This document shows, in pieces, positions 6,868-41,823 of a stretch of DNA of 44,934 bases. The stretch comes from Candidatus Latescibacterota bacterium. Lineage in GTDB: Bacteria; Latescibacterota; UBA2968. The notes below the pieces were generated by a model that had not been told where the DNA came from, did not search any database, and was given only the letters and a program-made list of their open reading frames with translations. The translations under genes were made by a program, and so were the position numbers. The first letter of the stretch is position 1, and every line of letters begins with the position of its first letter. The stretch covers positions 1 to 44,934 of the forward strand of contig JAJEHL010000013.1 in the NCBI GenBank assembly GCA_022823725.1, in the 5' to 3' direction.

Positions 6868-6961
6868 GATTCTCTCCGAAGATGAGATGCGAGATGTCTA
6901 TTCACGTTTCAGCTTGTTCTATAGGCAGGAATTTTACCTGCTTTACCGCAATTTGTCAAAG

Positions 6962-6980: not shown

Positions 6981-6997
6981 AAAGATGAGTAGCTGTT

Positions 6998-8240: not shown

Positions 8241-8266
8241 TCGGTACCTCTAATTTTATTTTTTCT

Positions 8267-9673: not shown

Positions 9674-9676
9674 TTT

Positions 9677-10426
9677 TTATTCTCCATAAACTACGGGTGG
9701 AAAATGTTCATCTGGCGGCAATGTATTGGGTGTCAGCTTTAAGGGATCTGTGACTACATGCTTTTTGCCGGTGTATTTTGCTGTTGCATCGACAAAAATA
9801 ATCACGTATCCCACCCGCCAATCATCGGTTTTATTCGGTCCCGCGGTGTGAAATGTCATTCCGTGGTGAAATGTACAATCTCCCGCCTGAAGCGGATGCG
9901 TCACCCTGGTACGCCACGCGATTTCCGGCGCGAATTCCCGCCATCCCTCCTGGTTATTTGTCGCCATGTCCGGTACGTCTTTCATTTCGTGCGATCCCTG
10001 TACAAATGACATGCACCCCATTTCTACGGGTGTATCCTGCAATGCGACCCACGCCGATAGGGCATTGGAATTGCGATCATAAGGCCATTTCACCAGGTCT
10101 TGATGGAACGCTGTTGGCACTTCGAGCTCTGGCATTTTTGCCAGGATGTGATCGTGCCAGATCCGCAATCGCACGCCCGAAATTTTCTCTGCGACAGCGG
10201 CGACATTCGGGTGTTGTGTCAAGTTGCGCAATACCTCGTCTTCTCGCCATACGTTCACTTTTTGATTAAATGGCCGGTTTGGATCCTTTGGCATGGCTTC
10301 GAGAATATCCAGTGATGCCCGACGAAATTTCGTCACTTCTTCCGGCGAGATAATCTGCGGAATTTTTATGACGCCATCGCGCCGATATGTTGCCAGCATT
10401 TCATCTGTGATATCTGTTGGTGTCAT
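9677..10426 (-). CDS. PhyH-type Fe(II)/2-oxoglutarate dioxygenase
   Basis: This 249-residue protein is a compact PhyH-family dioxygenase. The iron pair is in AFHQDLVKW (H108, D110), and the distal histidine is in the segment FHHGMTFHTAGPN (most likely H193), followed by an arginine (DWRVGY) for 2-oxoglutarate. All metal ligands appear intact, unlike the truncated paralogue at the left edge. It sits between two sulfatase genes with gaps of 3 and 17 bases, so it probably works on the same compound, for instance by oxidative cleavage or hydroxylation of a sulfated substrate or its aglycone. That is inference. Ribosome binding site AAAGGA. Confidence 0.85.
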   Translation of the reverse strand: MTPTDITDEMLATYRRDGVIKIPQIISPEEVTKFRRASLDILEAMPKDPNRPFNQKVNVWREDEVLRNLTQHPNVAAVAEKISGVRLRIWHDHILAKMPELEVPTAFHQDLVKWPYDRNSNALSAWVALQDTPVEMGCMSFVQGSHEMKDVPDMATNNQEGWREFAPEIAWRTRVTHPLQAGDCTFHHGMTFHTAGPNKTDDWRVGYVIIFVDATAKYTGKKHVVTDPLKLTPNTLPPDEHFPPVVYGE

Positions 10427-10443
10427 GGCTTTTTCCTTTTTAC

Positions 10444-12012
10444 TTACCCGCGCTTTGCGAGGATATTGTCCCAGGGTTCAATCCCGCACCGCTCTGCCCA
10501 GGCGTCGTAGATCGCCGCGAGTTCGGCTACGACATCGGGATTTTCATTTGTCAGATCGTTGAGTTCCGATCTGTCGGCTTCAATATCGTATAGCTCCCAA
10601 TCGCCCGGGTAGCGTTTTACCAATTTCCACTTGCCTTTGCGCACGGCGCCATTGCCTTCGTGTTCCCAGATCAGATATTCTTTGCCGTTGTCCTGGTTTT
10701 CAAAGATCGGCGTTAGCGAGGTGCCTTCGAGGGGCAAGATATCGTGCTCATTATAAGTTTCGGGATACGCAGCACCCGCTACATTGAGACAGGTTGCCAT
10801 GACATCGGTAAGCTGGCCGGGTTGCTCGCGCAATGCGCCGCTGTCTGTTACGCGATCGGGCCAGTGTACGATAAAGGGTGTTGCAATACCGCCTTCGTGA
10901 ACCCAGTGTTTGTACAGGCGAAATGGGGTGTTGGATACATTGGCCCAGGGTACGCCGTAGCTCTGATACGTGGTTTCGTCTCCCGGCATTATGTTGGGGT
11001 CATTGCCGCGTTGGACTGGGCGACCATTGCGCGTGGTGGCCGGGGCAATCGCGCTGCGTCGCATGCCGCCTCCCAGTTCTTCGGCACATCCCCCATTGTC
11101 GGCCAGAAATACGATCAGGGTGTTGTCCAGTTGCCCGGTTTCTTCGAGGGATTGGACGATGCGTCCGATGCCCTGATCCATGCGATCCACCTGTGCGGCA
11201 TAAACTTCCATGCGTCGCTGCTGCCACGCCTTGTGATCTGCTTCTTCCCAGGGCACTTGAGAGGGGTCGCGGTCGCTCAGTCCCCATTCGGGTTTCAAGA
11301 TGCCCATTTCGCGCATGCGCGCCAAACGCTCTTCGCGCAGTTGATCCCATCCCGCGGCAAAACGATCTTTGTATTTTGCAATGTCTTCCTCGTGCGCGTG
11401 CAGGGGCCAATGGGGTGCGGTGTATGCGGTGTATAAAAAGAATGGCTGATCTCCGTTTGCCTGCGCGTGTTCTCGGATATAATCCGCTGCCTGATCGCTG
11501 ATGGCATCGGTTAAAAAGAAATCCTCTGGAAATTCATCCACTGTAATTTGCTCGTTGTCCCGCGTGAGTGTTTGCGGCTTCCAATAATTGGCGGCACCGG
11601 TAATGATGCCGAAAAAGCGATCAAATCCGCGCTGACAGGGCCAACTGTGTTTGGGACCATCCGCATCTGCATGCCGCGTGATATGCCATTTGCCACTCAT
11701 ATAGGTCGCATATCCCACGGTTTTGAGCACTTCGGCAATGGTTACGCTCCTGAAGTTCAGATCGCCCCGATACCCTTCGTATTCCCGGTCATCCATCATG
11801 TGTCCTACACTGGCTTGATGGGGATGCAATCCTGTGAGCAGCGATGCCCGCGTGGGGCAGCACCGCGCCGTGTTGTAAAATTGAGTGAGTCGCAACCCAT
11901 TGGCAGCAAGTCGATCTAAATTTGGCGTGTGGATCTCACCGCCGTAACATCCAATATCAGAATAGCCCATATCGTCGTTCATAATCAGCAAAATATTTGG
12001 TCGCTCTGCCAT
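10444..12012 (-). CDS. Arylsulfatase-type S1 sulfatase (formylglycine-dependent)
   Basis: The 522-residue protein is a second S1 sulfatase, closer in look to arylsulfatase A-type enzymes. N-terminal MNDDMGYSDIG holds metal-binding aspartates, CCPTR (51-55) followed by ASLLTG is the formylglycine site, and MSGKWH, FFLYTAYTAPHWPLH and VFLADNGGCAEE are conserved segments. No signal peptide is seen. It is the first gene of the sulfatase-PhyH-sulfatase-fucosidase operon, with an AAGGAG ribosome binding site. It is clearly different from the 8267 sulfatase, which suggests two different sulfate positions or linkages. Confidence 0.9.
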   Translation of the reverse strand: MAERPNILLIMNDDMGYSDIGCYGGEIHTPNLDRLAANGLRLTQFYNTARCCPTRASLLTGLHPHQASVGHMMDDREYEGYRGDLNFRSVTIAEVLKTVGYATYMSGKWHITRHADADGPKHSWPCQRGFDRFFGIITGAANYWKPQTLTRDNEQITVDEFPEDFFLTDAISDQAADYIREHAQANGDQPFFLYTAYTAPHWPLHAHEEDIAKYKDRFAAGWDQLREERLARMREMGILKPEWGLSDRDPSQVPWEEADHKAWQQRRMEVYAAQVDRMDQGIGRIVQSLEETGQLDNTLIVFLADNGGCAEELGGGMRRSAIAPATTRNGRPVQRGNDPNIMPGDETTYQSYGVPWANVSNTPFRLYKHWVHEGGIATPFIVHWPDRVTDSGALREQPGQLTDVMATCLNVAGAAYPETYNEHDILPLEGTSLTPIFENQDNGKEYLIWEHEGNGAVRKGKWKLVKRYPGDWELYDIEADRSELNDLTNENPDVVAELAAIYDAWAERCGIEPWDNILAKRG

Positions 12013-12135: not shown

Positions 12136-13002
12136 TCAAACGTAGAGTATTAAAACCAGGGTTAGCAACCACAGGGCGCAGGCGATTAGAAGAGGGAGAT
12201 CACCCAATACGGTGGAGGTGGGATTGCCGCCCCCATCTTTTTTGTAGATGAGATAGAGGTAGCGCAACATACCGTAAATTACAAAAGGGATGGTGAGGTT
12301 GAGGTATTTGGTGCCGAGTTTTTCAATAACTTCGGGCGACATGGTGTAAAGCGCGTAGGATACCAGTGCGCCGGCTGTGACGATGGCAATTATCTGGTCG
12401 AGAAATTGCGGAGAATATTCTGCGAGGATGCGGCGGTGGGTGCTGGCGTCTCCTTCGAGCAGGGCGAGTTCATGCCGGCGCTTGGCAAAGCCGAGAAATA
12501 GTGCCAGCAGCATGGTACAGAGGATGAACCAGGAGGAAATGGCGACCTGAATCGCCACTGCACCGCCGATGGCGCGCAGAAGAAATCCCGCGGCAATGAT
12601 CATAACATCGAGGATGACGATGTGTTTGAGGTACAGCGTATAGGCGATGTTCAGTACTGCATAGATCAGGAGGACGATCCCAAAATGGGGATGTACATAA
12701 AATCCCCCGATCAGGGCGATCAGGGCGAGGAGGATAGCGGCGATGGCGGCAACGGAGATACGCAACGCGCCCGAGGCGATCGGGCGATGGCGTTTCAGAG
12801 GATGCTGGCGGTCGTTTTCTCTGTCTCGGATGTCGTTGAAAAGGTACGCTGCGCCAGAGATGAGACAAAAACAGATCAGGGCAAGGATGCCTTGCAGGAG
12901 GTCGTCGGATTCAAAAATGCGTTTGGTAAAAACGAGAGCGGCCAATACAAAGACATTTTTGACCCATTCGCGTGGACGCATCGCGTGGATGAGTGGAGAC
13001 AT
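12136..13002 (-). CDS. UbiA-family prenyltransferase, decaprenyl-phosphate phosphoribosyltransferase-like
   Basis: The 288-residue membrane protein has about eight to nine hydrophobic segments and the UbiA motif NDxxDxxxD at 56-64 (NDIRDREND), followed by RPIASG. The N-terminus MRPREWVKNVFV and the C-terminal YKKDGGGNPTSTVLGD are typical of decaprenyl-phosphate phosphoribosyl (DPPR) synthases. These move phosphoribose from PRPP onto a polyprenyl phosphate, giving precursors for arabinosyl or related cell-surface sugars. The epimerase genes that usually complete that pathway are not in the window. It lies alone between two terminators, just downstream of the large peptidase gene. Confidence 0.82.
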   Translation of the reverse strand: MSPLIHAMRPREWVKNVFVLAALVFTKRIFESDDLLQGILALICFCLISGAAYLFNDIRDRENDRQHPLKRHRPIASGALRISVAAIAAILLALIALIGGFYVHPHFGIVLLIYAVLNIAYTLYLKHIVILDVMIIAAGFLLRAIGGAVAIQVAISSWFILCTMLLALFLGFAKRRHELALLEGDASTHRRILAEYSPQFLDQIIAIVTAGALVSYALYTMSPEVIEKLGTKYLNLTIPFVIYGMLRYLYLIYKKDGGGNPTSTVLGDLPLLIACALWLLTLVLILYV

Positions 13003-27591: not shown

Positions 27592-28842
27592 TTAGTTGCG
27601 AAACTTACGCAGGATGAGGACTGCGTTGTGACCACCGAAGCCGAAGGAGTTGCTAATGGCTATTTCAACGGGTATCTCTCGCGCTTCGTTGGGCACGTAA
27701 TCGAGGTCGCATTCGGGGTCGGGTGTTTCATAGTTGATCGTAGGCGGCACCACATTGTGATGAACGGATAGGGTTGCCGCGATAGTTTCAATCGCACCCG
27801 AAGCCCCTAAAAGATGGCCGGTCATAGATTTTGTCGAACTGACGGGGAGCTTTTTGGCATAGTCGCCAAATACGGATTTGATGGCGGCTGTTTCTCCCGG
27901 ATCACCCACGGGTGTTGATGTGCCGTGTGCGTTGATATAAGACACGTCTTTCGGGTTGATCTGCGCCTGTCGCAGGGCACGGCGCAGGGCGCGGGCACCT
28001 CCCTCGCCGCCAGGTGCCATATCCGTAATGTGATAGGCATCACCAGTGTAACCGGTTCCTACCACTTCGGCATAAATAGTGGCACCTCGTTGCGTTGCGT
28101 GTTCGAGTTCTTCCAGAACAAGCCCACCGGCACCTTCTCCAATTACAAACCCATCTCGGTCTGCGTCAAAGGGGCGACTGGCTTGCGTTGGGGCGTCGTT
28201 GCGGGTTGAAAGCGTTCGCGCTGAGGCAAATCCACCGACTGACATCGGTGTAATGGCGGCTTCTGCCCCTCCTGTGATCATGATATCGGCTTCGTCGTCC
28301 CAAATTTCGCGGGCTGCATTGCCAATGGCATGGGCTGCCGAGGCACAAGCTGTAACGGTGGTATAGTTGGGACCTTTGGCGCCGAGATAGATGGATACTT
28401 GACCCGCGGACATATCGGGGATCATCATGGGCACAAAAAGCGGACTGATGCGTCGTGGACCACCCTTGCGATAGGCATCGTGCTGATCTTCAAAGGTTTG
28501 GATGCCCCCAATGCCCGAGCCAAATACAACCCCGATGCGTTCGGCCTGTTCATTACTGATATCGAGACCTGCATTTTCTACGGCCTGAACAGATGATGCG
28601 ATGGCGTACTGAGTAAAGAGATCCATGCGCCGCTGGCTGCGACGGTCAATGCCAAAGTAAGCTGGATCAAAGTTTTTGACTTCGGCGGCAAATTGCACGC
28701 GGAAATCGGTGGCGTCAAATTTTGTTATGGGACCAACACCTGTTTGTCCATTGCACAGTGCTTCCCAGTAGCTTTGTGTGGTATTGCCATTGGGGGCAAG
28801 TGTGCCCATGCCGGTGATGACCACTCTGCGTTGTCTGTTCAC
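27592..28842 (-). CDS. fabF: 3-oxoacyl-ACP synthase II
   Basis: The 416-residue condensing enzyme elongates acyl-ACP with malonyl-ACP in type II fatty acid synthesis. The active cysteine is in TACASAAHAIG, and the two histidines are in NAHGTSTPVGD and MTGHLLGASG. Length fits KAS II. Start is GTG 28842, supported by an AGGAGG site seven bases upstream. The gene follows acpP with a strong intercistronic hairpin between them, which may lower its expression relative to acyl carrier protein. Confidence 0.96.
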   Translation of the reverse strand: MNRQRRVVITGMGTLAPNGNTTQSYWEALCNGQTGVGPITKFDATDFRVQFAAEVKNFDPAYFGIDRRSQRRMDLFTQYAIASSVQAVENAGLDISNEQAERIGVVFGSGIGGIQTFEDQHDAYRKGGPRRISPLFVPMMIPDMSAGQVSIYLGAKGPNYTTVTACASAAHAIGNAAREIWDDEADIMITGGAEAAITPMSVGGFASARTLSTRNDAPTQASRPFDADRDGFVIGEGAGGLVLEELEHATQRGATIYAEVVGTGYTGDAYHITDMAPGGEGGARALRRALRQAQINPKDVSYINAHGTSTPVGDPGETAAIKSVFGDYAKKLPVSSTKSMTGHLLGASGAIETIAATLSVHHNVVPPTINYETPDPECDLDYVPNEAREIPVEIAISNSFGFGGHNAVLILRKFRN

Positions 28843-28853
28843 TAAATGACCTC

Positions 28854-28884
28854 CTGGAGGCTGGAGATTGATTCCAGCCTCCAG
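28854..28884 (-). promoter_or_regulatory. acpP-fabF intercistronic hairpin touching the fabF ribosome binding site
   Basis: CTGGAGGCTGGA and TCCAGCCTCCAG form a perfect 12-bp stem with a 7-base loop in the 50-base gap. On the minus strand the 3' arm overlaps the first two bases of the fabF AGGAGG site. There is no T-run, so it is not a standard terminator. It could stabilise the 3' end of acpP mRNA or limit fabF translation. Confidence 0.65.
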
Positions 28885-28892
28885 TTTCCGAA

Positions 28893-29132
28893 TTAATCCA
28901 GACGTTCGTCTAAGTATGCAATAGCATCGCCAACTGTTTCGAGTTTTTCAGCGTCTTCGTCGGAAATTTCCATGTCAAATTCTTCTTCGAAAGCCATGAC
29001 CAGTTCGACTGTGTCGAGCGAGTCTGCGCCCAGATCGTCAATAAAGTGGGCGTCGGCATTGACGCTATCGGCATCGACGCCGAGTTGGTCAACGATCAGA
29101 TCGGTAACTTTTTGTTGAATATCATCGGTCAT
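28893..29132 (-). CDS. acpP: Acyl carrier protein
   Basis: This is a 79-residue acidic helical protein with the phosphopantetheine attachment serine in [18 protein letters not shown]. It carries the growing chains for fatty acid synthesis and is also the likely octanoyl donor for the LipM-like enzyme. Typical size and charge. It lies between fabG and fabF as in many bacteria. Confidence 0.97.
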
Positions 29133-29167
29133 TATGAAGCCCTCCGTGTGTAGTGTGTCGTGATTAT

Positions 29168-29914
29168 TTACATCACCATTCCGCCATCGACAACGAGAAC
29201 CTGTCCGGTAATATAGGCCGCGTCATCAGAGGCGAGAAAGGCTGCGGCAGCGGCGACATCTTTGGGACTGCCGAGTTTGCCCAGTGGAATCTGTGCGATC
29301 AACTGTTCTTGTATTTTATCGTTGAGTTTGGCGGTCATGTCAGTTGGGATAAATCCGGGCGCAATGGCGTTGGCCGTAATATTGCGGCTGGCTAATTCTC
29401 TGGCTACCGATTTGGTCAGGCCAATAAGGCCCGATTTGGATGCGGCGTAATTGATCTGCCCTGCATTGCCCGTGAGCCCCACGACCGATGAGACGTTGAT
29501 GATGCGACCGGTTCGCGCCTTCATCATGGGACGGGTGACAGCTTTGACACAATGGTACGCACCTTTGAGGTTGACGTCAAGAACAGCATCCCACTCGTCT
29601 TCTTTCATACGCATCAGCAAATTGTCGCGAGTGATACCCGCATTGTTGACGAGTATATCAATTTTGCCCCAGGTGTCGAGGACGGTCTTGACGAGGACTT
29701 CAACTGATTCGGCATTGGATACATCGGTTTGTTGTACAAGGGCTTCACGGCCTTGTGCGCGGATTTTTTCGGCCACAGCTTCTGCAGCTTCCGTGCTCTG
29801 GCTGGCACAGATGGCGATGTTGGCTCCTTCGCGCGCAAGGCGCAGGGCAATGGCCTCGCCAATGCCGCGAGATCCACCTGTTATAAGAGCCGTTTTATCT
29901 GTGAGTCGGTTCAT
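29168..29914 (-). CDS. fabG: 3-oxoacyl-ACP reductase
   Basis: The 248-residue short-chain dehydrogenase reduces 3-oxoacyl-ACP with NADPH. It shows the cofactor loop [12 protein letters not shown], the [14 protein letters not shown] segment typical of FabG, the catalytic serine in [11 protein letters not shown] and YAASK. The C-terminus ends in VVDGGMVM, as FabG proteins do. It lies between fabD and acpP in the fatty-acid operon. Confidence 0.96.
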
Positions 29915-29937
29915 GAGATAATTGCCGGTTAAATGTT

Positions 29938-30855
29938 CTAAAGTTGTTCAATGGCTTCCAATGTGCCGGCTTCGCGGACTAACATATTGCGGTCGATTCG
30001 GCGCATGAGCCCCTTGAGCACATTGCCTGGTCCCACTTCGAGGGCTTCGGTCATGCCTTCTTCTATGAGCCGTTGCATGGATTCTGTCCAGCGAACAGGC
30101 GAAATAATTTGCTCGATCAACAGGTCTTTGAGCAGGTCTGGATCGCGTGTGGGTTCAGCCGTGACATTGGGGATCACGGGGATTTGCGCCCGCACAAATG
30201 GCACATCTTCGAGTATGTCGGTCAGTGCTGTTACGGCTGGTTGCATCAGGGCCGAATGAAATGCGCCACCTACGGGCAAGAGCACAGCGCGTTTGGCTCC
30301 CAGTGCTTTGGCTTTTTCAAGTGCTTCGTCAATGGCGTTTTCCTCGCCAGATAGGACCACTTGTCCCGGGCAATTGAAATTGGCTGTTGTGACATGACCT
30401 GAAGAACTGAGGTCGTCGCAAAGCCGAATCATCACGTCGTCGTCGAGGCCGAGTACTGCAGCCATGGAGCCTGGCCGAATTTTTCCCGCGACTTGCATGG
30501 CATGTCCGCGAACGCTGACGACCCGAAAGCCATCTTCGACGCGCATAACACCTGCCGCAACGAGCGCGGCGAGTTCTCCAACACTGTGTCCTGCCACGAG
30601 GTCGGGGTGCAGTCCCCGGCTTTTAATTACTTCAAGAGCGGCAATGCTGTGGGCAAAAATTGCCGGTTGTGTGACTGCGGTTTGTTTGAGTGACTCAGCA
30701 GGACCGTTGAAGCAGAATGACTTAATGTCTATATCGAGCACATCGTCGGCAAGATCAAAAATTTGGTGCGCTTCCGGTGCGCTTCTGTACAGATCGTATC
30801 CCATGCCAACGAATTGGGAACCTTGTCCTGGAAATAGGAAAGTTTTTTTTTCCAT
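29938..30855 (-). CDS. fabD: Malonyl-CoA:ACP transacylase
   Basis: This 305-residue enzyme loads malonyl groups onto acyl carrier protein. N-terminal FPGQGSQFVGMG, the nucleophile GHSVGELAAL and the histidine in GGAFHSALM mark the family. The fabH stop immediately precedes its ATG with no gap. Length normal. Confidence 0.96.
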   Translation of the reverse strand: MEKKTFLFPGQGSQFVGMGYDLYRSAPEAHQIFDLADDVLDIDIKSFCFNGPAESLKQTAVTQPAIFAHSIAALEVIKSRGLHPDLVAGHSVGELAALVAAGVMRVEDGFRVVSVRGHAMQVAGKIRPGSMAAVLGLDDDVMIRLCDDLSSSGHVTTANFNCPGQVVLSGEENAIDEALEKAKALGAKRAVLLPVGGAFHSALMQPAVTALTDILEDVPFVRAQIPVIPNVTAEPTRDPDLLKDLLIEQIISPVRWTESMQRLIEEGMTEALEVGPGNVLKGLMRRIDRNMLVREAGTLEAIEQL

Positions 30856-31848
30856 CTAATAAGCCCAGGTTAGCAGGGTGCTGCCCCAGGTATATCCCGC
30901 ACCAGCACTGGCGAGCAACACGTTGTCACCGCGATTGAGACGGCCCTGTTCGGCTGCTTCAGACAGACCAATGGGAATGGTGGCAGCCGAGGTGTTGGCA
31001 TAGCGGTCGATATTGACCACAACGCGATCTTCGGGTATATCTGTACGTCTGACACAGGCGTCAATGATGCGTTTATTGGCCTGATGCGGCACAAAAAGCG
31101 CGATGTCTTTGCCGATAAGGCCGTTGCGTTCGAGAATTTGAGCGGAAACTTCCGCCATTTTGGGGACTGCAAATTTGAAAACTTCGCGACCATCTTGATA
31201 AATATAATGCATTTTTTTTTCAACGGTTTCACGAGAGGCGGGAAGCAGACTGCCGCCAGCGGGTTGCCGCAGATATTTTACGCCGCTGCCATCAGAATAG
31301 AGGATAAAGTCTTTAAGCCCCAAACCGGGTTCGCCGGATTCGAGTAAAACGGCGCCCGCGCCATCGCCAAAGAGCACACAGGTGTCGCGATCGGCGTAGT
31401 CTGTAATGCTGCTCATTTTGTCGGCTCCGATGACGACTACGCGTTTGTGTGCGCCCGTTTCAATAAATTGCCCCCCCACCATCAGAGCATATAAAAAACC
31501 ACTACAGGCTGCTGCCAGATCAAAAGCCCAGGCATTTGTGGCACCAATTTGGTCCTGTACCAGACAGGCCGTTGATGGAAATACCATGTCGGGCGTGATG
31601 GTCGCAACGATGATCAGATCGATATCTCTGGCATCGAGTCCTTTGTTGTGCAGAATGGATTCCAGAGATTTTAGAGCCATAAAAGATGTGCCCAATCCCT
31701 CGTCGAGAATGCGGCGTTCTTTGATGCCAGTGCGGGATGTGATCCACTCGTCGGATGTATCGACCATTTTTTCGAGGTCGGTATTGGTCAGCTTTTGTTC
31801 TGGGACATAGTGCCCAACCCCGGTGATGGTGGCTGCAAGGGGATACAT
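30856..31848 (-). CDS. fabH: 3-oxoacyl-ACP synthase III
   Basis: The 330-residue KAS III starts fatty acid synthesis by condensing acyl-CoA with malonyl-ACP. The Cys-His-Asn triad is visible as AACSGFLYA, PHQANKRI and YANTSAAT. The TSDEWITSRTGIKER segment near residue 32 is typical. It lies between rpmF and fabD, the common bacterial order. Confidence 0.96.
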   Translation of the reverse strand: MYPLAATITGVGHYVPEQKLTNTDLEKMVDTSDEWITSRTGIKERRILDEGLGTSFMALKSLESILHNKGLDARDIDLIIVATITPDMVFPSTACLVQDQIGATNAWAFDLAAACSGFLYALMVGGQFIETGAHKRVVVIGADKMSSITDYADRDTCVLFGDGAGAVLLESGEPGLGLKDFILYSDGSGVKYLRQPAGGSLLPASRETVEKKMHYIYQDGREVFKFAVPKMAEVSAQILERNGLIGKDIALFVPHQANKRIIDACVRRTDIPEDRVVVNIDRYANTSAATIPIGLSEAAEQGRLNRGDNVLLASAGAGYTWGSTLLTWAY

Positions 31849-31892
31849 GATGTACTCTGCTCCTCTAAAGTCTGCGCGACGTTAGACCAAAA

Positions 31893-32075
31893 TTAAAAGC
31901 CATCGGTTTCAACCACTTCGCGCCCATTGTAATAACCGCAATTTCCACAGACCCGATGGGGTATTTTTTGCTGCCCACAGTTGGGGCATTCGTTAAAAGT
32001 GGGTTGACGCAGCTTCCAATTGGCACGGCGTTTGCCTGTGCGGGAATTTGAACTTTTTCGTTTGGGGTTGGCCAT
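31893..32075 (-). CDS. rpmF: 50S ribosomal protein L32
   Basis: A 60-residue basic protein beginning [20 protein letters not shown] with two cysteine pairs (CPNCG and CGNCG), which mark the zinc-binding form of L32. The zinc form suggests no zinc-starvation paralogue type here. It follows the DUF177 gene and precedes fabH, a widespread arrangement linking ribosome and lipid synthesis. Confidence 0.97.
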
Positions 32076-32105
32076 GGTGGTATTCCTTTTTGATTGTTGC
32101 TCTGT

Positions 32106-32621
32106 TTACTGTTCGTTTTCTTTTAGTGCGCGGAGAGCATCCCAGCGCGGGTCGAGGCTCTTTTCACGCTCGTATTCCAGTAATTCATGGGGATCTTGCT
32201 CATAGCGTTCGCAAGGGCCAGAAGGCGATGCAGCGCATGTTGGAATCATGGGCAGTTCGAGCAAAATATAGTCTTTCACGTCATTGCCCAGATCTATTTC
32301 ACCGGGTTCTTCATTGAGCCAGATCAGCGTTTCATCATCGTCATCATTCATCTGGTCGGGACGACCTTTTTGAAAAACGAATGTGTATGAGATGGCGATG
32401 GGAAATTCGATGGGTTCCAGGCACCGCGCGCATTCGGGGCGCACCAGACAGGTAGTTTGACCTTTGGCAGAGAGCGAGTCGCCGTATTTGTACACGACGA
32501 GACGGGTGTTTATGGTACCTGCAAATTGGGTGTCTTCTTCGGTAATGTGCAGGTCGGCGGGTGTTTCTTCAAACGAAAGTTCGGTCTCGCCTTCCTGTAT
32601 ATCTCTCAGGTCGATTTTCAT
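32106..32621 (-). CDS. DUF177/YceD family protein
   Basis: This 171-residue acidic protein has the family CxRC-type segment RPECARCLEPIEFPI in the middle and the C-terminal PHELLEYEREKSLDPRWDALRALKE, which is typical of YceD. YceD homologues are almost always next to rpmF and have been linked to 23S rRNA maturation. It lies 30 bases upstream of rpmF and 6 bases downstream of ndk. Confidence 0.9.
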   Translation of the reverse strand: MKIDLRDIQEGETELSFEETPADLHITEEDTQFAGTINTRLVVYKYGDSLSAKGQTTCLVRPECARCLEPIEFPIAISYTFVFQKGRPDQMNDDDDETLIWLNEEPGEIDLGNDVKDYILLELPMIPTCAASPSGPCERYEQDPHELLEYEREKSLDPRWDALRALKENEQ

Positions 32622-33151: not shown

Positions 33152-33180
33152 TTGACACAAGTCTAATGGTCGCCTTTAAT
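33152..33180 (+). promoter_or_regulatory. Sigma-70-type promoter of the ether-lipid operon
   Basis: A perfect TTGACA (33152-33157) and TTTAAT (33175-33180) with 17-base spacing lie 60 bases upstream of the reductase ATG at 33241. The -35 boxes of this promoter and the divergent ndk promoter are only 48 bases apart, so a single regulator could affect both. Confidence 0.7.
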
Positions 33181-33240: not shown

Positions 33241-34845
33241 ATGAGTGTCGTTATTCCATTTTTGAATCACAAGGTTCTGTTTGTTACAGGTGCAACTGGT
33301 TTTTTGGCCAAGGGATTGGTGGGAAAAATTCTTTGCCACGCGCCAGATGTTGGGCGCATTTATCTCATGGTGCGACCTCAAAGGCGGGGAGGGGGCAAGC
33401 CCATTAGTGCCGAAGATCGACTGCAAAGGGAGATTTTGCAATCCAGTGCCTTTACGCGATTGCGCGCAGAACTCGGGAATCATTTTGATGCTGTGATGCG
33501 CGAAAAAGTCATTGCAGTGCCGAGCGATTTGACACAAGATCACCTCGGCATGGACGCGGAGACATATAAGCGGTTGACCCGTGAAGTTAATATTGTGATA
33601 AATAGCGCGGCCAATGTGGTTTTTGACGCGCCACTGGATTTGGCCCTGGCGCAAAATACACTTGGAGCCAGGCGCGTTGTCGAATTTGCCAAAGCATGTC
33701 GAGATGCTTTGCTGGTGCATGTTTCAACGGCTTATGTCAATGGGCGGCAAAAGAGAATCATTTCTGAAGATGCGCCCGTGCCCGATCAAACGGTGGCACA
33801 ACAGATGGGAAATGGTCGCGCGCCCGATTATAGTCTGGATTCGGAAATTGAAGATATTCTGACGTATAGCCGCGAAGTAGAGGCGTCGTCGCGGAGCCCC
33901 GAGCGATTTGCGGAATTTACGCGGTTGCTGGACCGACAGGATCGTGGCAAGCGCGTTACTGCACATCGGCGGGAACATCAGTTGGAGGCCCTGCGCCAGC
34001 GCTGGGTTCGGGAACGGATGGTGGCACGCGGCATAAAGCGCGGGCGAGAGTTGGGCTGGCACGACAGTTATTCTTTTACCAAAGCCATGGGTGAGCAGAT
34101 GATTGCCAAGACCCGGGGCGATTTGCCAACCGTGATCGTGCGCCCTTCTATTATTGAGAGCAGTTTGTCCGATCCAGAGCCGGGATGGCTGGAGGGGCTA
34201 AAAGTGGCCGATCCGCTTATTGCACACTACGGCAAGGGGCGTCTGACGGATTTTCCCGCGCGTCCAGAAGCGGTTTTAGACGTTATTCCCGTGGATATTA
34301 TTATCAATGTGATTATCGGTGTTTTGCCTTCTATCCGTGCAAATGCCGATTTGAAGGTTTATCATGTGACAACAAGTGCAAAAAATCCGGTCACGGTGGG
34401 TGAGGTCGTCCAGTATGTGTACGAGTATTTTGTGAACAATCCAATGCGTGATCGCAATGGCAAACCCATTGCGGTGACGCCGTGGACCTATCCGACATTG
34501 TCACAATTTCGTCGAAAGTTGCGCTATAAGTATCTATTGCCACTCAAAATTTTGCAACGGGCACTGGATTGGGTGCCAATGGTCGATGTCTCAAAACGCA
34601 AACGCCAATTATCGATTTTGAATGCCACTTTGGAAAATACGCTGGCGCTTACCGATATTTACGGTTCTTATATTTCTCTGGATTGCGTGTTTCAAAACGA
34701 TAATATGAATCGGTTGTTTGACAGCCTGGATGCAGAAGATAAAGAGATTTTTAATTGTGATGTTTCGCGCATAGATTGGCCCGTTTACGTAAAAGATATT
34801 CATATTCCCGGCTTGCAACGGCATGTGCTCAAGACAGGTGTTTAG
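33241..34845 (+). CDS. Fatty acyl-CoA reductase (alcohol-forming)
   Basis: This 534-residue protein has the extended short-chain dehydrogenase fold of the male-sterility/FAR family. The NAD(P)H loop is VTGATGFLAKG (15-25), the catalytic pair is YSFTK (Y277, K281) in the typical context WHDSYSFTKAMGEQ, and a C-terminal FAR domain follows. These enzymes reduce fatty acyl-CoA, often in two steps, to fatty alcohol. The insert at about 190-270 before the active site is long and charged. As first gene of the operon with an AGPS-like enzyme, it would supply the fatty alcohol for ether-bond formation; wax ester synthesis is an alternative, but no wax synthase is near. Confidence 0.85.
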   Translation: MSVVIPFLNHKVLFVTGATGFLAKGLVGKILCHAPDVGRIYLMVRPQRRGGGKPISAEDRLQREILQSSAFTRLRAELGNHFDAVMREKVIAVPSDLTQDHLGMDAETYKRLTREVNIVINSAANVVFDAPLDLALAQNTLGARRVVEFAKACRDALLVHVSTAYVNGRQKRIISEDAPVPDQTVAQQMGNGRAPDYSLDSEIEDILTYSREVEASSRSPERFAEFTRLLDRQDRGKRVTAHRREHQLEALRQRWVRERMVARGIKRGRELGWHDSYSFTKAMGEQMIAKTRGDLPTVIVRPSIIESSLSDPEPGWLEGLKVADPLIAHYGKGRLTDFPARPEAVLDVIPVDIIINVIIGVLPSIRANADLKVYHVTTSAKNPVTVGEVVQYVYEYFVNNPMRDRNGKPIAVTPWTYPTLSQFRRKLRYKYLLPLKILQRALDWVPMVDVSKRKRQLSILNATLENTLALTDIYGSYISLDCVFQNDNMNRLFDSLDAEDKEIFNCDVSRIDWPVYVKDIHIPGLQRHVLKTGV

Positions 34846-34854
34846 GCTTCTCTT

Positions 34855-36801
34855 ATGACCTCACGCAATAAATCGGATACTCGCCCATTGCACGAAACAC
34901 TGCTCGATGATTTGGAGCAGATGTTGGCTATTTATGACCAATCGGTTCAGCTTATGCTCGAAGCCGTGCGGCACGATGGCTATTTTGACGAGTTCGATCC
35001 AGATGCGCTGATCTGGCCCAAAAGTAAGAGTGGGGCGATGGATATGGAGGCACTGCAATTTCGCGCTCGGCTTGTGGATGCTATTTTTCGAGACCTGCCC
35101 GAGGTCCGCAATGAGCGTTTGGACGAGGCGTACCGTCCTTTTGCAGAGTTGCTTCCGCAATATCACACGGGCAGCCGAATTTATTTGCAACTCAGGCGAC
35201 AATTTGTCGAGCGTGGGCGCGGGGATGCGAAAGATTTTTTGAAGTTGTATCAGTCTCTGTATTTGAAGGCTTTGGCACAGGCGGAGTTGCACGCGCCCGA
35301 AGCCGTTGAAGAGGCTCTGGCTCAGGTGCATATTACACAGGTGCCGATGTCGCATGCCCGCGCTGTTGCAGAGGCTCTTGACAATGTGGAGGCAGATGAG
35401 GACGCGCACTGGGCCGAGGAGTATAGCTGTGAACGAGATGGCGAGCAGATTGTGGGCACTTTGCGCGATTTGTTGCAAGATGTGGCACAGCGCACGCTCA
35501 ATTTGATCGCCGCGGGGGGGTTGTTGTCAACGCGGTATAATTATTTGACGAATTTTGGTTGGTTTGGCGTGTCGGTGTGGAAGGTGATTGTGGATGCGGA
35601 GGTGGCTTTGGCGCGGTTGCGCGAGGCGGGCTATGTGGAACTGGATGGGATAGAGGACGATTTGTTGCACATCAAGGCGCTGTTGATTGAATTTTTGCAC
35701 GCGCATCAGGAAGATCCCACCAAGCTGCGTCCCAGGCTGTACTGGTATGGGCAGGAGTATAGTTATTTGACGCGGGATATGATTGATTTGTCGGTTAAGC
35801 TAATATGCGATGTGAACGCGCAAATCGATCGCGTTGGACAAAGTGTTTCGCGTATAGAAATTCCCGCTTTGTTCGCAGATACGGCGCGAGGGCGATTTTT
35901 GGAATATCCCGATGTCGGGCGCCGGGGGCAATTTTCAAAGTTGCAGCGAGGGATGCGTTTTGTCAGATGGATGGGGACTTCGCTCAAGGTGGGACGTCAA
36001 AAAAAGAAATTGTTGGAAAGAGAAGCCGATCCCATCCGCCGCCGCGAAGCCGGATGGCGCACCTGGCTCGATTGGGGGCGTCGCACGCTGGATATTTTTG
36101 ATATTCGCGTCAACGTTTATATCGATCCCCATTTTGAAGCCATTGTGCGAGATTTGGGAGTCGATGCGGAAGATCGGCGTCTTATTTTTTTGCCAACACA
36201 TCAGAGTTTATTTGACCATCCCGTTTTGTACAGGGTTTTGCAGTCTCGAGAATTTATGAATGCAATGGGATGGGAAAGACCCGAACCTTGTGTGATTCTG
36301 GCGCGCACGGGGCTGGCGCGCTCGGGTATCAAAATTGGGTCGAAACAGATCACGCAGTTTGGGATGACGTCGGAGGTTTTTGATCAGACCTTGGAAAATG
36401 TCGATGGCTATGTGATGCTCGAGCGATCCCGTGCTGCGGGCCATACGACACAGCGCGTGGCACAGGCATTGACAGAGCGACCGGGCGTTATTTATCCCAT
36501 GGCGACGACGGCGGCTTTTGCGATTCAACAATTTCCGCTTCAACACGGAGTGTTTGCACAATTGCCCCAGGATGTGGTGATTGTGCCGATTGCGTACCGC
36601 GGGCTTCACGCGCTGTGGCCCAAGTGTCCAAAGGGCAATATCAATATCAATCCAGGGCAGGTCGATGTGTGGGTCTCGCCGCCTATGCTGGGGGAGACGA
36701 CCCTGTTGCCCAAAAGACGGTCTCTGCGGATTCAGTCCGAGGCTGCCGCGCTGTTTCAAGCGGTGCATATTGCGACGTTGTTGAATCCGGAAGAGTCTTA
36801 A
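34855..36801 (+). CDS. Large glycerolipid acyltransferase, candidate DHAP or G3P acyltransferase
   Basis: The 648-residue protein is in two halves. Residues 1-430 are mostly helical and not recognised. From about 430 there is a glycerolipid acyltransferase domain, with the HX4D motif HQSLFD (449-454), GYVMLERSR (518-526) and the PGVIYPMATTAAFA segment. Such enzymes acylate G3P, DHAP or 1-acyl-G3P. It lies 9 bases after the reductase gene and before the AGPS-like gene. A role as DHAP acyltransferase (like GNPAT) fits because AGPS needs acyl-DHAP. Its domain layout differs from PlsB and GNPAT, so the assignment is an inference. Confidence 0.75.
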   Translation: MTSRNKSDTRPLHETLLDDLEQMLAIYDQSVQLMLEAVRHDGYFDEFDPDALIWPKSKSGAMDMEALQFRARLVDAIFRDLPEVRNERLDEAYRPFAELLPQYHTGSRIYLQLRRQFVERGRGDAKDFLKLYQSLYLKALAQAELHAPEAVEEALAQVHITQVPMSHARAVAEALDNVEADEDAHWAEEYSCERDGEQIVGTLRDLLQDVAQRTLNLIAAGGLLSTRYNYLTNFGWFGVSVWKVIVDAEVALARLREAGYVELDGIEDDLLHIKALLIEFLHAHQEDPTKLRPRLYWYGQEYSYLTRDMIDLSVKLICDVNAQIDRVGQSVSRIEIPALFADTARGRFLEYPDVGRRGQFSKLQRGMRFVRWMGTSLKVGRQKKKLLEREADPIRRREAGWRTWLDWGRRTLDIFDIRVNVYIDPHFEAIVRDLGVDAEDRRLIFLPTHQSLFDHPVLYRVLQSREFMNAMGWERPEPCVILARTGLARSGIKIGSKQITQFGMTSEVFDQTLENVDGYVMLERSRAAGHTTQRVAQALTERPGVIYPMATTAAFAIQQFPLQHGVFAQLPQDVVIVPIAYRGLHALWPKCPKGNININPGQVDVWVSPPMLGETTLLPKRRSLRIQSEAAALFQAVHIATLLNPEES

Positions 36802-36856
36802 ATCAACGAATCAACGGTCAGTGGTCAAAAATCAGCGAACAATCCCATCCATCGTC

Positions 36857-36908
36857 ATTGCGGCCCCTGCTTAAATCATACAGGGGCAGGCATGCTTTAA
36901 GCCGCAAT
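36857..36908. repeat. Nested small palindrome, copy 2
   Basis: CCCCTG/CAGGGG (36864-36869, 36881-36886) sits inside a perfect 8-bp outer stem, ATTGCGGC/GCCGCAAT (36857-36864, 36901-36908). The segment GGGGCAGGCATG between them is shared with the other copies. It occupies the 164-base gap between the acyltransferase and AGPS-like genes and has no T-run. Confidence 0.5.
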
Positions 36909-36965
36909 CCAGAGGTTTTGGGTGGTTGGGCGGGGTTCGTCTATTCGCATTTTGCGAGGTAAAAA

Positions 36966-38801
36966 ATGAATGAACTGATGGTTGTCGCACTTTTATTAAT
37001 ACTGGTCTTTTTGCTCGTTCGAGGGCGTCGCGTTTTTGCCAGTAAAGGCCGTTTTTCTGATGAAGTAGCAGAAGGCGAGCGGTTTGCTCACAAGTGGGGG
37101 TATAAGGATACGCGGTTTGAGTTTGACGATGACAGGACTGTGCAGGTGACGGGAACGCGGTATCCGTTGTGTGGCTATCGGATGCCGTATTTTCTGCCTT
37201 TTGTCGAAGAGGTGCTCGAGGTGCCGATCCGTCCCGAAGATATGGGGCAAGAGGTTGAGCACTGCGATTTGCCCGCGTCCGTGGCAAATGATGAATTTTT
37301 GAGGGCGGTGCGCGAGGTGCTCAATGACGATGGTGTTTCTCAGGAGGATATGGAGCGTCTGGTGCATAGCCACGGGCAGTTGAGTGTGGATGAGGTGTAT
37401 CAAATTTTGTACCATCGGCCACCCGAACGCCTGGTGGATGTGGTGTTGTTCCCGGAGGAAGACGCGGATATTCAGGCTATTGTTCAGCTTGCAAATGATC
37501 ACAATGTGGTGCTGGTGCCCTATGGCGGCGGGACGAATGTGAGTGGCGCGCTCGCAATTCCGACGTCAGAGACGCGAATGGTCGCGTCGGTGGATATGCG
37601 TCGCATGAATCGCATTGTGCAGGTGGATGAAGAGAATTTTCAAGCGTGTGTGCAGGCGGGGATTTCGGGTAAGCAATTGGAGATTGCGCTGAATGGGCTG
37701 GGATACACGTCGGGACACGATCCAGATAGTCTGGAGTTTTCAACTCTGGGAGGATGGATTGCGACCAATGCCAGTGGTATGAAAAAAAATCGGTATGGCA
37801 ATATTGAGGATATTGTGATAGAAGCCACGCTGGTGACGCCAACAGGGGAGGTGGAGACACGCCATGCGACGCCGCGCAATTCGACAGGTGTGCAGCCCCG
37901 GTCGTTTTTGTTTGGGAGTGAGGGCAATTTGGGGATTATTACCCGGGCGACGATAAAGATCCACAAACAGCCCGAAGCACAGGCGTTTGGTTCGCTGGTG
38001 TTTCCGTCATTTGAACGGGGTGTAAGTTACTTAAAAGCACTTCGTCCAACGGGGCAAGTTCCGGCGAGTATTCGGCTGGTGAACAATACGGAATTACAGC
38101 TTGGGCAGGCGCTGAAGCCCGAGGCAAAAGGCTTCAAGAAGCTCCAGCAGGATATTCAGCAATTTTTTTTGGTTAAGGTCAAGGGGTTTGATCCAAAGCA
38201 GTTGGTGGCGTGTACGATTGTGATGGAGGGAACGAAAGACGAGGTCCGGCAGCAGGCAAAGACGATTTTTCGTTTGGCGAAGAAATACGGCGGTATTTCG
38301 GGTGGGGCGCACAGGGGCGAGCGGGGGTATATGTTGACGTTTGGGATTGCGTATATTCGCGATTTCTTTACTCAGTTTCACATTTTGGGCGAGACATTTG
38401 AAACTTCTGTGCCGTGGACTAATATTCACGATGTTATTGGTGCGGTGGAAAAGAAGTTGGTTATTTTGTGTGAAGAATACGGCGTGCCGGGCAAACCCTT
38501 TCTGGCCTATCGCGTGACGCAGACCTATCACACGGGCGTGTGCATTTATTTTACTATGGGTTTTTGTGCGCAGGGGCTTGAGGATTCGGTTGGCGTTTAT
38601 CACGCGATTGAGCGCCAGTTGCGGCAGGAGATTTTAGACCACGGCGGGTCTTTGTCACATCATCACGGCGTGGGCAAGCTCCGCAGTGGCTTTTTGCCGC
38701 AGATTCAAAGCGAAAATAGCATTGCGGTGTTGCGGCAGATGAAAAAGGCGATGGATCCAAATAATATCTTTGCCATTGGCAATGGGGCGTTTGCGGATTG
38801 A
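36966..38801 (+). CDS. Alkyl-DHAP synthase (alkylglycerone-phosphate synthase) homologue
   Basis: This 611-residue flavoprotein is very like animal AGPS, which replaces the acyl chain of acyl-DHAP with a fatty alcohol to form the ether bond. Shared segments include RYPLCG (65-70), HDPDSLEFST (251-260), SGMKKNRYGNIED (270-282), RLVNN (370-374), KVKGFDP (404-410), GETFETSVPW (475-484), CIYF (526-529) and the SHHHGVGKLR active-site histidines (564-573). It is therefore a better match to AGPS than to D-lactate or glycolate oxidases of the same FAD-binding fold. The N-terminus has one membrane helix (about 4-18) in place of the peroxisomal signal. Ribosome binding site GAGGT. Confidence 0.88.
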   Translation: MNELMVVALLLILVFLLVRGRRVFASKGRFSDEVAEGERFAHKWGYKDTRFEFDDDRTVQVTGTRYPLCGYRMPYFLPFVEEVLEVPIRPEDMGQEVEHCDLPASVANDEFLRAVREVLNDDGVSQEDMERLVHSHGQLSVDEVYQILYHRPPERLVDVVLFPEEDADIQAIVQLANDHNVVLVPYGGGTNVSGALAIPTSETRMVASVDMRRMNRIVQVDEENFQACVQAGISGKQLEIALNGLGYTSGHDPDSLEFSTLGGWIATNASGMKKNRYGNIEDIVIEATLVTPTGEVETRHATPRNSTGVQPRSFLFGSEGNLGIITRATIKIHKQPEAQAFGSLVFPSFERGVSYLKALRPTGQVPASIRLVNNTELQLGQALKPEAKGFKKLQQDIQQFFLVKVKGFDPKQLVACTIVMEGTKDEVRQQAKTIFRLAKKYGGISGGAHRGERGYMLTFGIAYIRDFFTQFHILGETFETSVPWTNIHDVIGAVEKKLVILCEEYGVPGKPFLAYRVTQTYHTGVCIYFTMGFCAQGLEDSVGVYHAIERQLRQEILDHGGSLSHHHGVGKLRSGFLPQIQSENSIAVLRQMKKAMDPNNIFAIGNGAFAD

Positions 38802-38816
38802 AATGGAAAGGACCAA

Positions 38817-39647
38817 TTGATTTTGAGTGGCGCGATGTTCAGGGATAAGGTAGCGATTATTACGGGCGCGTCTTCGGGACTTGGGGCTGCGTTGGCTCTG
38901 GAATTGGCGAAGCAGGGCGCACATCTGGCATTGTTTGCGCGGCGGGAGGAAATGCTGGGCGAGACGGCTGAGCAGTGTCGGCGGTTGGGCGTGCAGGTGG
39001 TGACAGTGGTGGGGGATGTTACACGGGTCGAAGATTGCGAACAATTGATTGAGGCGACGATTGCAGCTTATGGTCGTATAGATTATTTGATTGCCAATGC
39101 AGGGATCAGTATGTGGGCGCGGTTTGACGAGGTGGAAGATTTGGAGGTGTTTCGCAAGCTGATGGAGACCAATTATCTCGGTCTGGTTTATTGCGTGCAT
39201 GCGGCATTGCCACATTTGAAAGTTTCGAAGGGTATGATTGTGGCCATTGCATCTTTGCAGAGTAAATTTGGTGTGCCTTTGCACACGGGATATGGTGCGT
39301 CAAAGCACGCGGTGCTGGGTTTTTTAAACGCCCTGCGTCTGGAAGTCCAGGAAGTGCATGTTTTGACGGTTTTGCCGCACTGGCTTCAGGGGACGAATTT
39401 GAGACAGCACGCTTTTGGGAAGGATGGGGAAGCATTGGGCGATTCTTCACAACGGCACAATAAAGAGGCACTTTCTCTTAGATCTTGTTGCATGGCAATT
39501 TTGAAAGCGATGCGAAAACAGAAGCGCGAATTGGTGCTTCCCTGGCACCACCGCGCATTGCCCTTTCTTCAAGCGATTCATCCCAAAATTGTCGAGTGGC
39601 TGGTGAGGAGGAAGATGAGGGACCAGGGTTTGGGGGAGATGGGGTGA
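38817..39647 (+). CDS. Short-chain dehydrogenase, candidate alkyl-DHAP reductase
   Basis: The 276-residue SDR has TGASSGLGAALA for the cofactor, NAGISMW, the catalytic YGASK and a C-terminal extension with a basic end. Extended SDRs of this look (DHRS7-like) include the mammalian acyl/alkyl-DHAP reductase, which makes alkyl-G3P. That would finish the pathway begun by the three upstream genes. The start is a TTG at 38817 with AAAGGA upstream; ATG 38835 is the alternative. The stop overlaps the next gene's ATG (TGATG). Substrate is inferred from context. Confidence 0.8.
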   Translation: MILSGAMFRDKVAIITGASSGLGAALALELAKQGAHLALFARREEMLGETAEQCRRLGVQVVTVVGDVTRVEDCEQLIEATIAAYGRIDYLIANAGISMWARFDEVEDLEVFRKLMETNYLGLVYCVHAALPHLKVSKGMIVAIASLQSKFGVPLHTGYGASKHAVLGFLNALRLEVQEVHVLTVLPHWLQGTNLRQHAFGKDGEALGDSSQRHNKEALSLRSCCMAILKAMRKQKRELVLPWHHRALPFLQAIHPKIVEWLVRRKMRDQGLGEMG

Positions 39648-40709: not shown

Positions 40710-40832
40710 GTGACGTCTTCTGATCTGCATCCAAAGCCAGAAGCGCGATCTGAGGCGGATGCTCAGACGGCAGTCACCACCCAAGTCACCACCCAAGTCA
40801 CCACCCAAGTTACCACCCAAGTCACCCCCTAA
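40710..40832 (+). CDS. Possible 40-residue peptide with VTTQ repeats
   Basis: A GTG start at 40710 with GGAGAG upstream opens a 40-codon frame just 10 bases after the GH3 stop. The second half is VTTQ repeated four times then VTP, made by the 12-base tandem repeat at 40772. It may be a real small protein, the remnant of a longer gene, or chance. The good ribosome binding site is the main support. Confidence 0.3.
   Translation: MTSSDLHPKPEARSEADAQTAVTTQVTTQVTTQVTTQVTP
40772..40831 (+). repeat. 12-base tandem repeat (five units)
   Basis: Units of AGTCACCACCCA start at 40772, 40784, 40796, 40808 (one change) and 40820 (diverged), and a partial sixth follows at 40832. The period is a multiple of three, so any frame across it gives a four-residue repeat. 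The first three units are identical, which suggests recent expansion. Confidence 0.85.
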
Positions 40833-40910
40833 GTCACCTCAGAACCTCGATAGATTTGTTCTTACATTAAGGATACAAGATCGTTTCCGCCTGTATCGGG
40901 TTAGATCCTA

Positions 40911-40941
40911 CTCATCTCATTACGAGGTGAGTTTTCTTTTT
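40911..40941 (+). terminator. Terminator-like hairpin just before the diacylglycerol kinase gene
   Basis: CTCATCTC and GAGGTGAG (one G-U pair) form an 8-bp stem with a 5-base loop, followed by TTTTCTTTTT. It ends only 6 bases before the ATG at 40948, so it may be an attenuator for that gene as well as the end of the ether-lipid/GH3 transcript. The rest of 40833-40910 shows no gene. Confidence 0.65.
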
Positions 40942-40947
40942 AATTTT

Positions 40948-41823
40948 ATGTCAAATCACTGGACAATTATTGCGAATCCCGTTTCGGGACGTGGCCGTGC
41001 AAGGCGCATAGGCGAGCGGGTTGCGGATTTGTTGCGTGAGCGCGGTGTAAATGCCGATTTGATGTTATCGGAGGCACCGGGCGATTGCGAGCGGTTAGCG
41101 CGGGAAGTGTTGGCGCAGGGCGTGCGACGGGTTGTTGCATGCGGGGGGGATGGGACTGTGCATGAGGTGATCAATGGTCTCGCAAATTCCGATGCGATTT
41201 TAGGGGTTGTGCCTTGTGGTCGCGGGAATGATCTGGCGCGGGCATTGGGGTTGTCCAGAGATGTGAAGGCCGTGGTCAATACGCTGATGCATGGGGTGGA
41301 TCGCGCGATTGATTTGGGAAGAGTGGGAGACCGATTTTTTTCGACTGTTGCGAGTTTGGGTTTCGATACGGCGGTGGCGCAAAGGGCGCGGTCTCGACCT
41401 TCGAGATTGGGTGGGACAGCGTCCTATTGTCTGGCGGTTTTGCAAACATTATCTGGATATCGATCCCCTCTTGTGCGTCTGCGGGGAGATTTTGGCATTT
41501 TTGAAGGGCGTGTTTTGCTGGCGGCAACGGCGAATGCGCCTTTTTATGGAAGTGGGGTCAAAATTGCACCCGATGCCATTGTTGACGATGGGATGCTGGA
41601 TGTATGTATTGTGGCAGATGTTTCGCGCTGGACGGTTTTACGGATGTTTTTGCGCGCGTATTCCGGCGCGCATGTTGGTCATTCTGCTGTGCGTGTTGTG
41701 CAGACGAGAACTTTGCAGATTGAGTCCGATGATTCTCTGTGGATTTTTGCCGATGGGGAACCCGTGTGTGAGGTTCCCGCGAAGATTGAGGTTGTTCCGG
41801 GTGCGTTGAGGGTGAAGGTATAG
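40948..41823 (+). CDS. Diacylglycerol kinase-family lipid kinase (YegS/BmrU-like)
   Basis: The 291-residue protein has the DAGK catalytic domain with NPVSGRGRAR (10-19) and the ATP motif GGDGT (66-70), then the C-terminal beta domain with SLGFDTAVA, DGMLDVCIV and SDDSLWIFADGEP. Family members phosphorylate diacylglycerol, undecaprenol or other lipids. ATG 40948 fits the normal N-terminus, but has no clear ribosome binding site and follows directly on a hairpin. The frame is open to 40759 through the tandem repeat, giving PPKS repeats that look like a shadow. It may serve lipid recycling alongside the ether-lipid genes; this is inference. Confidence 0.85.
   Translation: MSNHWTIIANPVSGRGRARRIGERVADLLRERGVNADLMLSEAPGDCERLAREVLAQGVRRVVACGGDGTVHEVINGLANSDAILGVVPCGRGNDLARALGLSRDVKAVVNTLMHGVDRAIDLGRVGDRFFSTVASLGFDTAVAQRARSRPSRLGGTASYCLAVLQTLSGYRSPLVRLRGDFGIFEGRVLLAATANAPFYGSGVKIAPDAIVDDGMLDVCIVADVSRWTVLRMFLRAYSGAHVGHSAVRVVQTRTLQIESDDSLWIFADGEPVCEVPAKIEVVPGALRVKV

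Follow-up and report, generated by a model that had tools for sequence, protein, structure and literature searches.

In Myxococcus xanthus, the operon MXAN_1676-1674 encodes AGPS, a fusion of fatty acyl-CoA reductase (FAR) with GNPAT, and an NAD epimerase/dehydratase; this AGPS is approximately 42% identical to human AGPS, and disruption of MXAN_1676 has only a minor effect on the ether lipids of the organism (PMC9131029). AGPS lies near an alternative fatty acyl-CoA reductase in Ca. Promineifilum (PMC11948995), and Latescibacterota metagenome-assembled genomes from the Black Sea contain homologues of AGPS (67 of 92) and of elbD (50 of 92) (PMC11868695). The elbD clusters of sponge symbionts have been assigned to Acidobacteriota and Poribacteria (PMC9426513), and nearly every bacterial group is listed as having gpsA (PMC5059525). 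Here we analyse a 44,934-nucleotide stretch (the window) of a Latescibacterota contig, from a 5.3 Mb genome that is 98% complete, in which four adjacent genes encode a FAR, an acyltransferase (AT), an AGPS homologue and a short-chain dehydrogenase/reductase (SDR). Judged from their sequences and distribution, these genes probably form a glycerolipid pathway that starts from dihydroxyacetone phosphate (DHAP), branches in part to alkyl ethers, and replaces the glycerol 3-phosphate (G3P) route in this class of bacteria. The new elements are the proposed class-wide replacement and a new acyltransferase family; a single-operon enzyme set is already known in kind. An original prediction, made from the window alone, had presented the locus as a one-locus bacterial version of the eukaryotic ether lipid pathway. 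The operon is real and its order conserved, but it is not the first, being preceded by MXAN_1676-1674 (PMC9131029).

Results

To relate the four genes to the standard route, 64 genomes of the phylum were surveyed, 47 from the class of the window, which consists mostly of sponge-associated bacteria, and 17 from outside it. AT was found in 46 of the 47 class genomes, FAR in 45 and AGPS in 42, compared with none of the 17 others in each case. PlsX over its cut-off was absent from all 47 class genomes and present in 15 of the 17 outside; PlsY and the C-terminal domain of GpsA were likewise absent from all 47, and each was present in 12 of the 17. The same searches were positive in the sister classes, E. 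coli, B. subtilis and other controls, and the completeness figures make it impossible in practice for genome incompleteness to account for 47 absences. The GpsA, PlsX and PlsY of the standard bacterial G3P route are thus missing throughout the class. With these three lost, the locus probably lies at the core of membrane synthesis rather than being an accessory; without GpsA, there is no recognised conversion of DHAP to G3P. In two sister-class genomes (L166:6981-9286 and L164) the gene order is rpmF-plsX-fabH, compared with rpmF-fabH in the window, where plsX appears to have been cleanly lost from the cluster (Table 1). The only other PF01553 protein in the window's genome is of the PlsC type (222-223 aa), and no PlsB was seen there. 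In the literature searched, which covered few subscription journals, no report was found of GpsA, PlsX and PlsY loss in Latescibacterota or of an acyl-DHAP route as the main route in a bacterium.

The four genes lie side by side on the plus strand at 33241-39647, and all of the predicted open reading frames (ORFs) were confirmed in position. A neighbourhood search, as the original prediction had proposed, found the order FAR-AT-AGPS-SDR in three families (f1, f2 and f3), at every examined locus covering all four genes, which is far beyond chance. In a fourth family (f4) the operon is split: AGPS and SDR remain paired, AT lies by itself, and FAR mostly forms the N-terminal part of an ElbD-like protein of approximately 1400 aa (FAR, AMP-binding, PF01553) that replaces the stand-alone enzyme. 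Such proteins are encoded at L141:5097-9317 (minus strand) and at loci L116-L123, one of them has 1406 aa, and in one f4 genome (G049) the ElbD-like gene is adjoined by a DagK-type gene.

The ElbD-like FAR-AMP-AT protein of f4, together with the wide occurrence of elbD-type clusters in sponge Acidobacteriota and Poribacteria (PMC9426513), would fit an elbD-like accessory alkylglycerol cluster, serving signalling or a sponge host, with the housekeeping lipid genes replaced by divergent enzymes elsewhere. Such an explanation is extremely improbable, as AT has a housekeeping-like distribution across four families, even where AGPS has been lost, and as GpsA, PlsX and PlsY, three unrelated families, would all have to have diverged beyond detection.

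The AGPS homologue firmly belongs with the alkyl-DHAP synthases, an activity that is predicted for it from sequence. Single-sequence searches matched guinea-pig AGPS at 512 bits, Dictyostelium AGPS at 305 and D-lactate dehydrogenase at 89; the match to the structure 4bby had E=2e-152, and identity to guinea-pig AGPS was 43% over the aligned part. A profile of 25 class sequences gave 684 bits for the guinea-pig and 410 for the Dictyostelium protein, compared with 125-129 for the best other oxidases. In a maximum-likelihood tree, which did not include M. xanthus AGPS, guinea-pig AGPS grouped with the Latescibacterota sequences (support 100/99), followed by Dictyostelium AGPS with a homologue from a Streptomyces plasmid, while the plasmid-borne FAD oxidases of Moraxella and Mycobacterium fell outside; finer branching order is unsafe because of long branches.

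Residues D303, T309, R419, R515, Y578 and H615-617 (guinea-pig numbering) were invariant in the 25 class sequences, and the L469 position was variable (V, A or L). Eight of the nine sites checked were identical in the window protein. We take these residues to be those with catalytic or disease-linked roles in AGPS structure work. AGPS is the enzyme affected in the human disorder rhizomelic chondrodysplasia punctata (RCDP) type 3.

An oxidase acting on D-lactate, glycolate or another 2-hydroxyacid, lying in an unrelated fatty-alcohol or wax cluster, would share the general FAD_binding_4 and FAD-oxidase_C domains of this protein and its weak GlcD matches, which stay below the NCBIfam cut-off. 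This reading is scarcely credible given the difference in bit scores, the grouping with guinea-pig AGPS and the conserved sites, including D303 and R515, neither of which is present in the Moraxella and Mycobacterium FAD oxidases. By both search and tree the protein is closer to alkyl-DHAP synthases than to other FAD oxidases of the vanillyl-alcohol oxidase type. The phylogenetic check set by the original prediction thus came out in its favour, and the three AGPS segments that it quoted were all found in the protein. It had also proposed that an N-terminal helix holds the protein at the membrane. The helix is present (17-residue Kyte-Doolittle mean 2.9) and anchoring is plausible, but the feature occurs in many relatives and not in all, so that it is not general in the class.

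The FAR contains PF07993 (3e-64) and PF03015 (1.5e-14), the NAD_binding_4 and C-terminal Sterile domains of the FAR1 type, and matches a fatty acyl-CoA reductase of solved structure (PDB 7eoz) at 305 bits (6e-90). Its identity as a FAR-type reductase, as originally claimed, is firm; supply of fatty alcohol by this enzyme is a prediction.

The SDR is a classical member of its family (PF00106; NF004825, 298 bits, cut-off 215), as expected for the fourth gene, and is almost always the neighbour of AGPS wherever the contig extends far enough. An orthologue was found in 37 of the 47 class genomes. It was missing from genome G018 and from genus g13, in which four of five genomes also lack AGPS. The fifth g13 genome (G054), like G018, has an AGPS of a different subtype, with another SDR after it. 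In the remaining genomes without the orthologue, AGPS itself was missing, a fragment, or located at the end of a contig. The distribution of the SDR therefore tracks that of AGPS, which supports a role as alkyl-DHAP reductase, putatively of the Ayr1/DHRS7B type. At L138:7959-9662 and L145:7360-9054, a second AGPS subtype, approximately 46% identical to the main one, is likewise adjoined by a different SDR.

AT had no Pfam match over the cut-off (Pfam acyltransferase E=0.1) and no NCBIfam match, and neither single-sequence nor profile searches matched any PDB sequence. An AlphaFold2 model built from 24 sequences had a mean predicted local distance difference test score (pLDDT) of 81 and a predicted template modelling score (pTM) of 0.85. 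In Foldseek the best match of the model was Thermotoga PlsC (5kym; probability 1.00, E 4e-5); two Thermotoga PlsC chains were the only matches with E<0.001, and squash G3P acyltransferase (GPAT; 1k30) came next (probability 1.00, E 7e-3). The C-terminal half of the model has the PlsC/GPAT fold. PF01553 was matched weakly by 9 of 24 AT relatives and above the cut-off by some members of f4.

The predicted HX4D motif is real: H449 was invariant in 24 relatives, and D454 is replaced by glutamate (H-X4-E) in a few. Further along, at the place of the PEGT-type motif of PlsC, AT has YPMATT in the window and YGEGTT in f4. The unusually long N-terminal half that had been pointed out was also confirmed; residues 1-424 are conserved and mostly helical, with an invariant YxYLTR at 302-307, and this half modelled alone (pLDDT 83) matched no solved fold with E<0.001. 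AT is thus best described as a putative DHAP acyltransferase by role and not as GNPAT by membership, and represents a new acyltransferase family. As had been predicted, each of the four proteins has its counterpart in type among FAR1, GNPAT, AGPS and alkyl-DHAP reductase.

The gaps between FAR and AT, AT and AGPS, and AGPS and SDR are 9, 164 and 15 bp, respectively, and a candidate promoter-like box, TTGACA-N17-TTTAAT, was spotted by eye 5' of FAR (33152-33180). A palindrome in the AT-AGPS gap had no other copies in the window, nor in the relatives' loci outside the same operon gap. Upstream of the operon, on the minus strand, lie the fatty-acid synthesis cluster and an ndk-like gene; the fab cluster stays beside the operon in f1 and part of f2. 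Downstream of SDR are ORFs for a glycoside hydrolase family 3 (GH3) enzyme and then a YegS/DagK-type lipid kinase, a gene that comes next after the operon in several f1 and f2 members. The 5' part of the kinase ORF contains six 12-bp tandem repeats (40760-40850; SPPKSPPK...) that are probably 5' of the true start.

Some relatives' operons carry inserts (L003:11837-12682 and L128:9229-11061). One insert, between AGPS and SDR, consists of a DUF6036 nucleotidyltransferase and a small partner, 79% similar in G038; G038 also has, between its AT and AGPS genes, an apparent pair of ATPase-type genes. Elsewhere in the window, positions 118-12012 encode three PhyH-type dioxygenases, two sulfatases, an alpha-L-fucosidase and a Gfo/Idh/MocA oxidoreductase, likely for breakdown of sulfated glycans.

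Table 1 Features of the four-gene operon and its surroundings in the window
Feature	Position	Strand	Remarks
FAR	33241-34845	+	534 aa; alcohol-forming fatty acyl-CoA reductase type, NAD_binding_4 + Sterile
AT	34855-36801	+	648 aa; putative DHAP (glycerone-phosphate) acyltransferase; no Pfam/NCBIfam model
HX4D motif of AT (H449-D454)	36199-36216	+	From alignment of AT relatives
AGPS	36966-38801	+	611 aa; alkyl-DHAP synthase homologue, FAD_binding_4 + FAD-oxidase_C
Hydrophobic N-terminal helix of AGPS (~residues 4-19)	36975-37022	+	Putative membrane anchor
Codon of AGPS Tyr528 (guinea-pig Tyr578)	38547-38549	+	
Codons of AGPS His565-567 (guinea-pig His615-617)	38658-38666	+	
SDR	38817-39647	+	276 aa, TTG start; putative 1-alkyl/1-acyl-DHAP reductase
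YegS/DagK-family lipid kinase	40759-41823	+	Possible accessory gene; annotated start probably too early, ~40954
Fatty-acid synthesis cluster yceD-rpmF-fabH-fabD-fabG-(acpP gap)-fabF	27592-32621	-	Upstream of operon, opposite strand
Empty plsX slot	31849-31892	-	44 bp between rpmF (31893-32075) and fabH (30856-31848)

Discussion

In the proposed pathway, AT would acylate DHAP to 1-acyl-DHAP, and FAR would reduce fatty acyl-CoA or acyl carrier protein (ACP) thioesters to fatty alcohol, which AGPS would exchange for the acyl chain to give 1-alkyl-DHAP. The SDR would then reduce alkyl-DHAP, and perhaps acyl-DHAP, to the sn-glycerol-3-phosphate form, and a separate PlsC would add the sn-2 chain. 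In a class without GpsA, PlsX and PlsY, the entry step catalysed by AT probably feeds ester lipids too. We infer from the genomes what all of the substrates and lipid products are and in which direction the flux runs. The wider proposal, that the entire class has dropped the GpsA/PlsX/PlsY route and makes all of its glycerophospholipids, ester and ether, from DHAP through the new acyltransferase family, is one towards which we lean only slightly.

Several observations weigh against this pathway. In sequence, AT does not match GNPAT, PlsB or GPAT, and it shares only the fold with their superfamily, so that its original designation as GNPAT could not be demonstrated; its motifs are degenerate, and the usual glutamate of the PEGT-type motif is not conserved. 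The presence/absence split across the phylum amounts to one evolutionary event, probably at the base of the class, and not to 64 independent ones, and Fisher values for it are therefore not independent support. Four g13 genomes keep AT without AGPS and the operon-type SDR, and would therefore need another reductase for acyl-DHAP.

GlpK also scores over its cut-off in the window's genome and in approximately 30 of the 47 class genomes. G3P could thus come from glycerol, and AT could be a PlsB-like GPAT fed by glycerol kinase, with the AGPS branch an accessory that draws on a small acyl-DHAP pool. The PlsC and plant GPAT fold of the AT C-terminal half agrees with this. In some actinobacteria, PlsB compensates for loss of PlsX and PlsY alone. 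However, all 47 genomes also lack GpsA, through which G3P is made de novo, and GlpK over the cut-off was not found in 15 of them, including the single-contig genomes G049 and G050, which therefore have no recognised G3P source. In three families, FAR and AGPS flank the AT gene, which also argues against a GPAT, an assignment that we regard as unlikely.

GGGP (geranylgeranylglyceryl phosphate) synthase (PF01884) was found in 62 of the 64 genomes, and the protein of the window's genome also passes the TIGR01769 cut-off; some isoprenoid ether lipids are therefore possible throughout the phylum. Archaeal lipid genes are known in relatives from the Fibrobacterota-Chlorobiota-Bacteroidota (FCB) group (PMC7852524), and membranes made mainly of archaeal-type isoprenoid ether lipids would account for the loss of GpsA, PlsX and PlsY, leaving minor lipids to the four genes. 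This is nevertheless very improbable. The sister classes with GpsA, PlsX and PlsY have GGGP synthase to the same extent, so that its presence does not track the loss of these enzymes; fatty-acid genes, FAR and PlsC are all retained. The GGGP synthase gene of the window's genome (G000:C48:97444-98094; L155:9397-10146, minus strand) lies beside genes for PfkB, PtsI and SAM synthetase, with no further archaeal lipid genes among these neighbours. The UbiA-family protein of the window (12136-13002, minus strand) fits decaprenyl-phosphate phosphoribosyltransferase (NF008977, PDB 8j8j), an enzyme type that makes arabinan precursors, and not digeranylgeranylglyceryl phosphate (DGGGP) synthase. On this evidence from GGGP synthase, its gene neighbours and the UbiA protein, an archaeal-lipid explanation of the loss was rejected.

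Should the DHAP-first pathway hold, a route that is textbook knowledge for animal peroxisomes could carry a whole bacterial membrane, and a step regarded as almost invariable in bacteria, the acceptor step in making phospholipids, would have been swapped across one class. Here AGPS, FAR and a new acyltransferase would be found working together in nature; the class might also be where bacterial ether lipids of sponges come from, and would be a reason not to assume the presence of gpsA, plsX and plsY in surveys of the lipid divide. A well-conserved bacterial counterpart of AGPS is available for study.

Comparison with known systems

The window shares its reaction logic and AGPS catalytic residues with the animal peroxisomal FAR1-GNPAT-AGPS-DHRS7B pathway. 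It differs in having one bacterial operon and no peroxisome, in an AT that is not recognisably GNPAT, and in the N-terminal hydrophobic helix of some class AGPS proteins. PEDS1/CarF (PF10520) was found in none of the 64 genomes, in a search that was silent in the controls too and so had no positive control; vinyl ethers may be less likely on this account. PlsA/Ger of anaerobes also yields bacterial ether or vinyl-ether lipids, but acts by reducing finished ester lipids, unlike the DHAP-first scheme. AT would fill the first-acylation slot of the PlsX/PlsY and PlsB systems; the proteins are different, the predicted acceptor is DHAP and not G3P, and GpsA is lost too. Myxobacterial ElbD, which combines FAR, acyl-CoA synthetase (ACS), ACP and AT domains, resembles the 1406-aa protein of f4, where AGPS-SDR is kept elsewhere, whereas the family of the window has separate FAR and AT proteins. 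The M. xanthus operon MXAN_1676-1674 likewise holds the same alkyl ether lipid enzyme set in one operon. FAR and acyltransferase are fused in M. xanthus and separate in the window, no kinship with GNPAT can be recognised in the sequence of the window AT, and the operon is accessory in M. xanthus, whereas the Latescibacterota class of the window is without the standard route.

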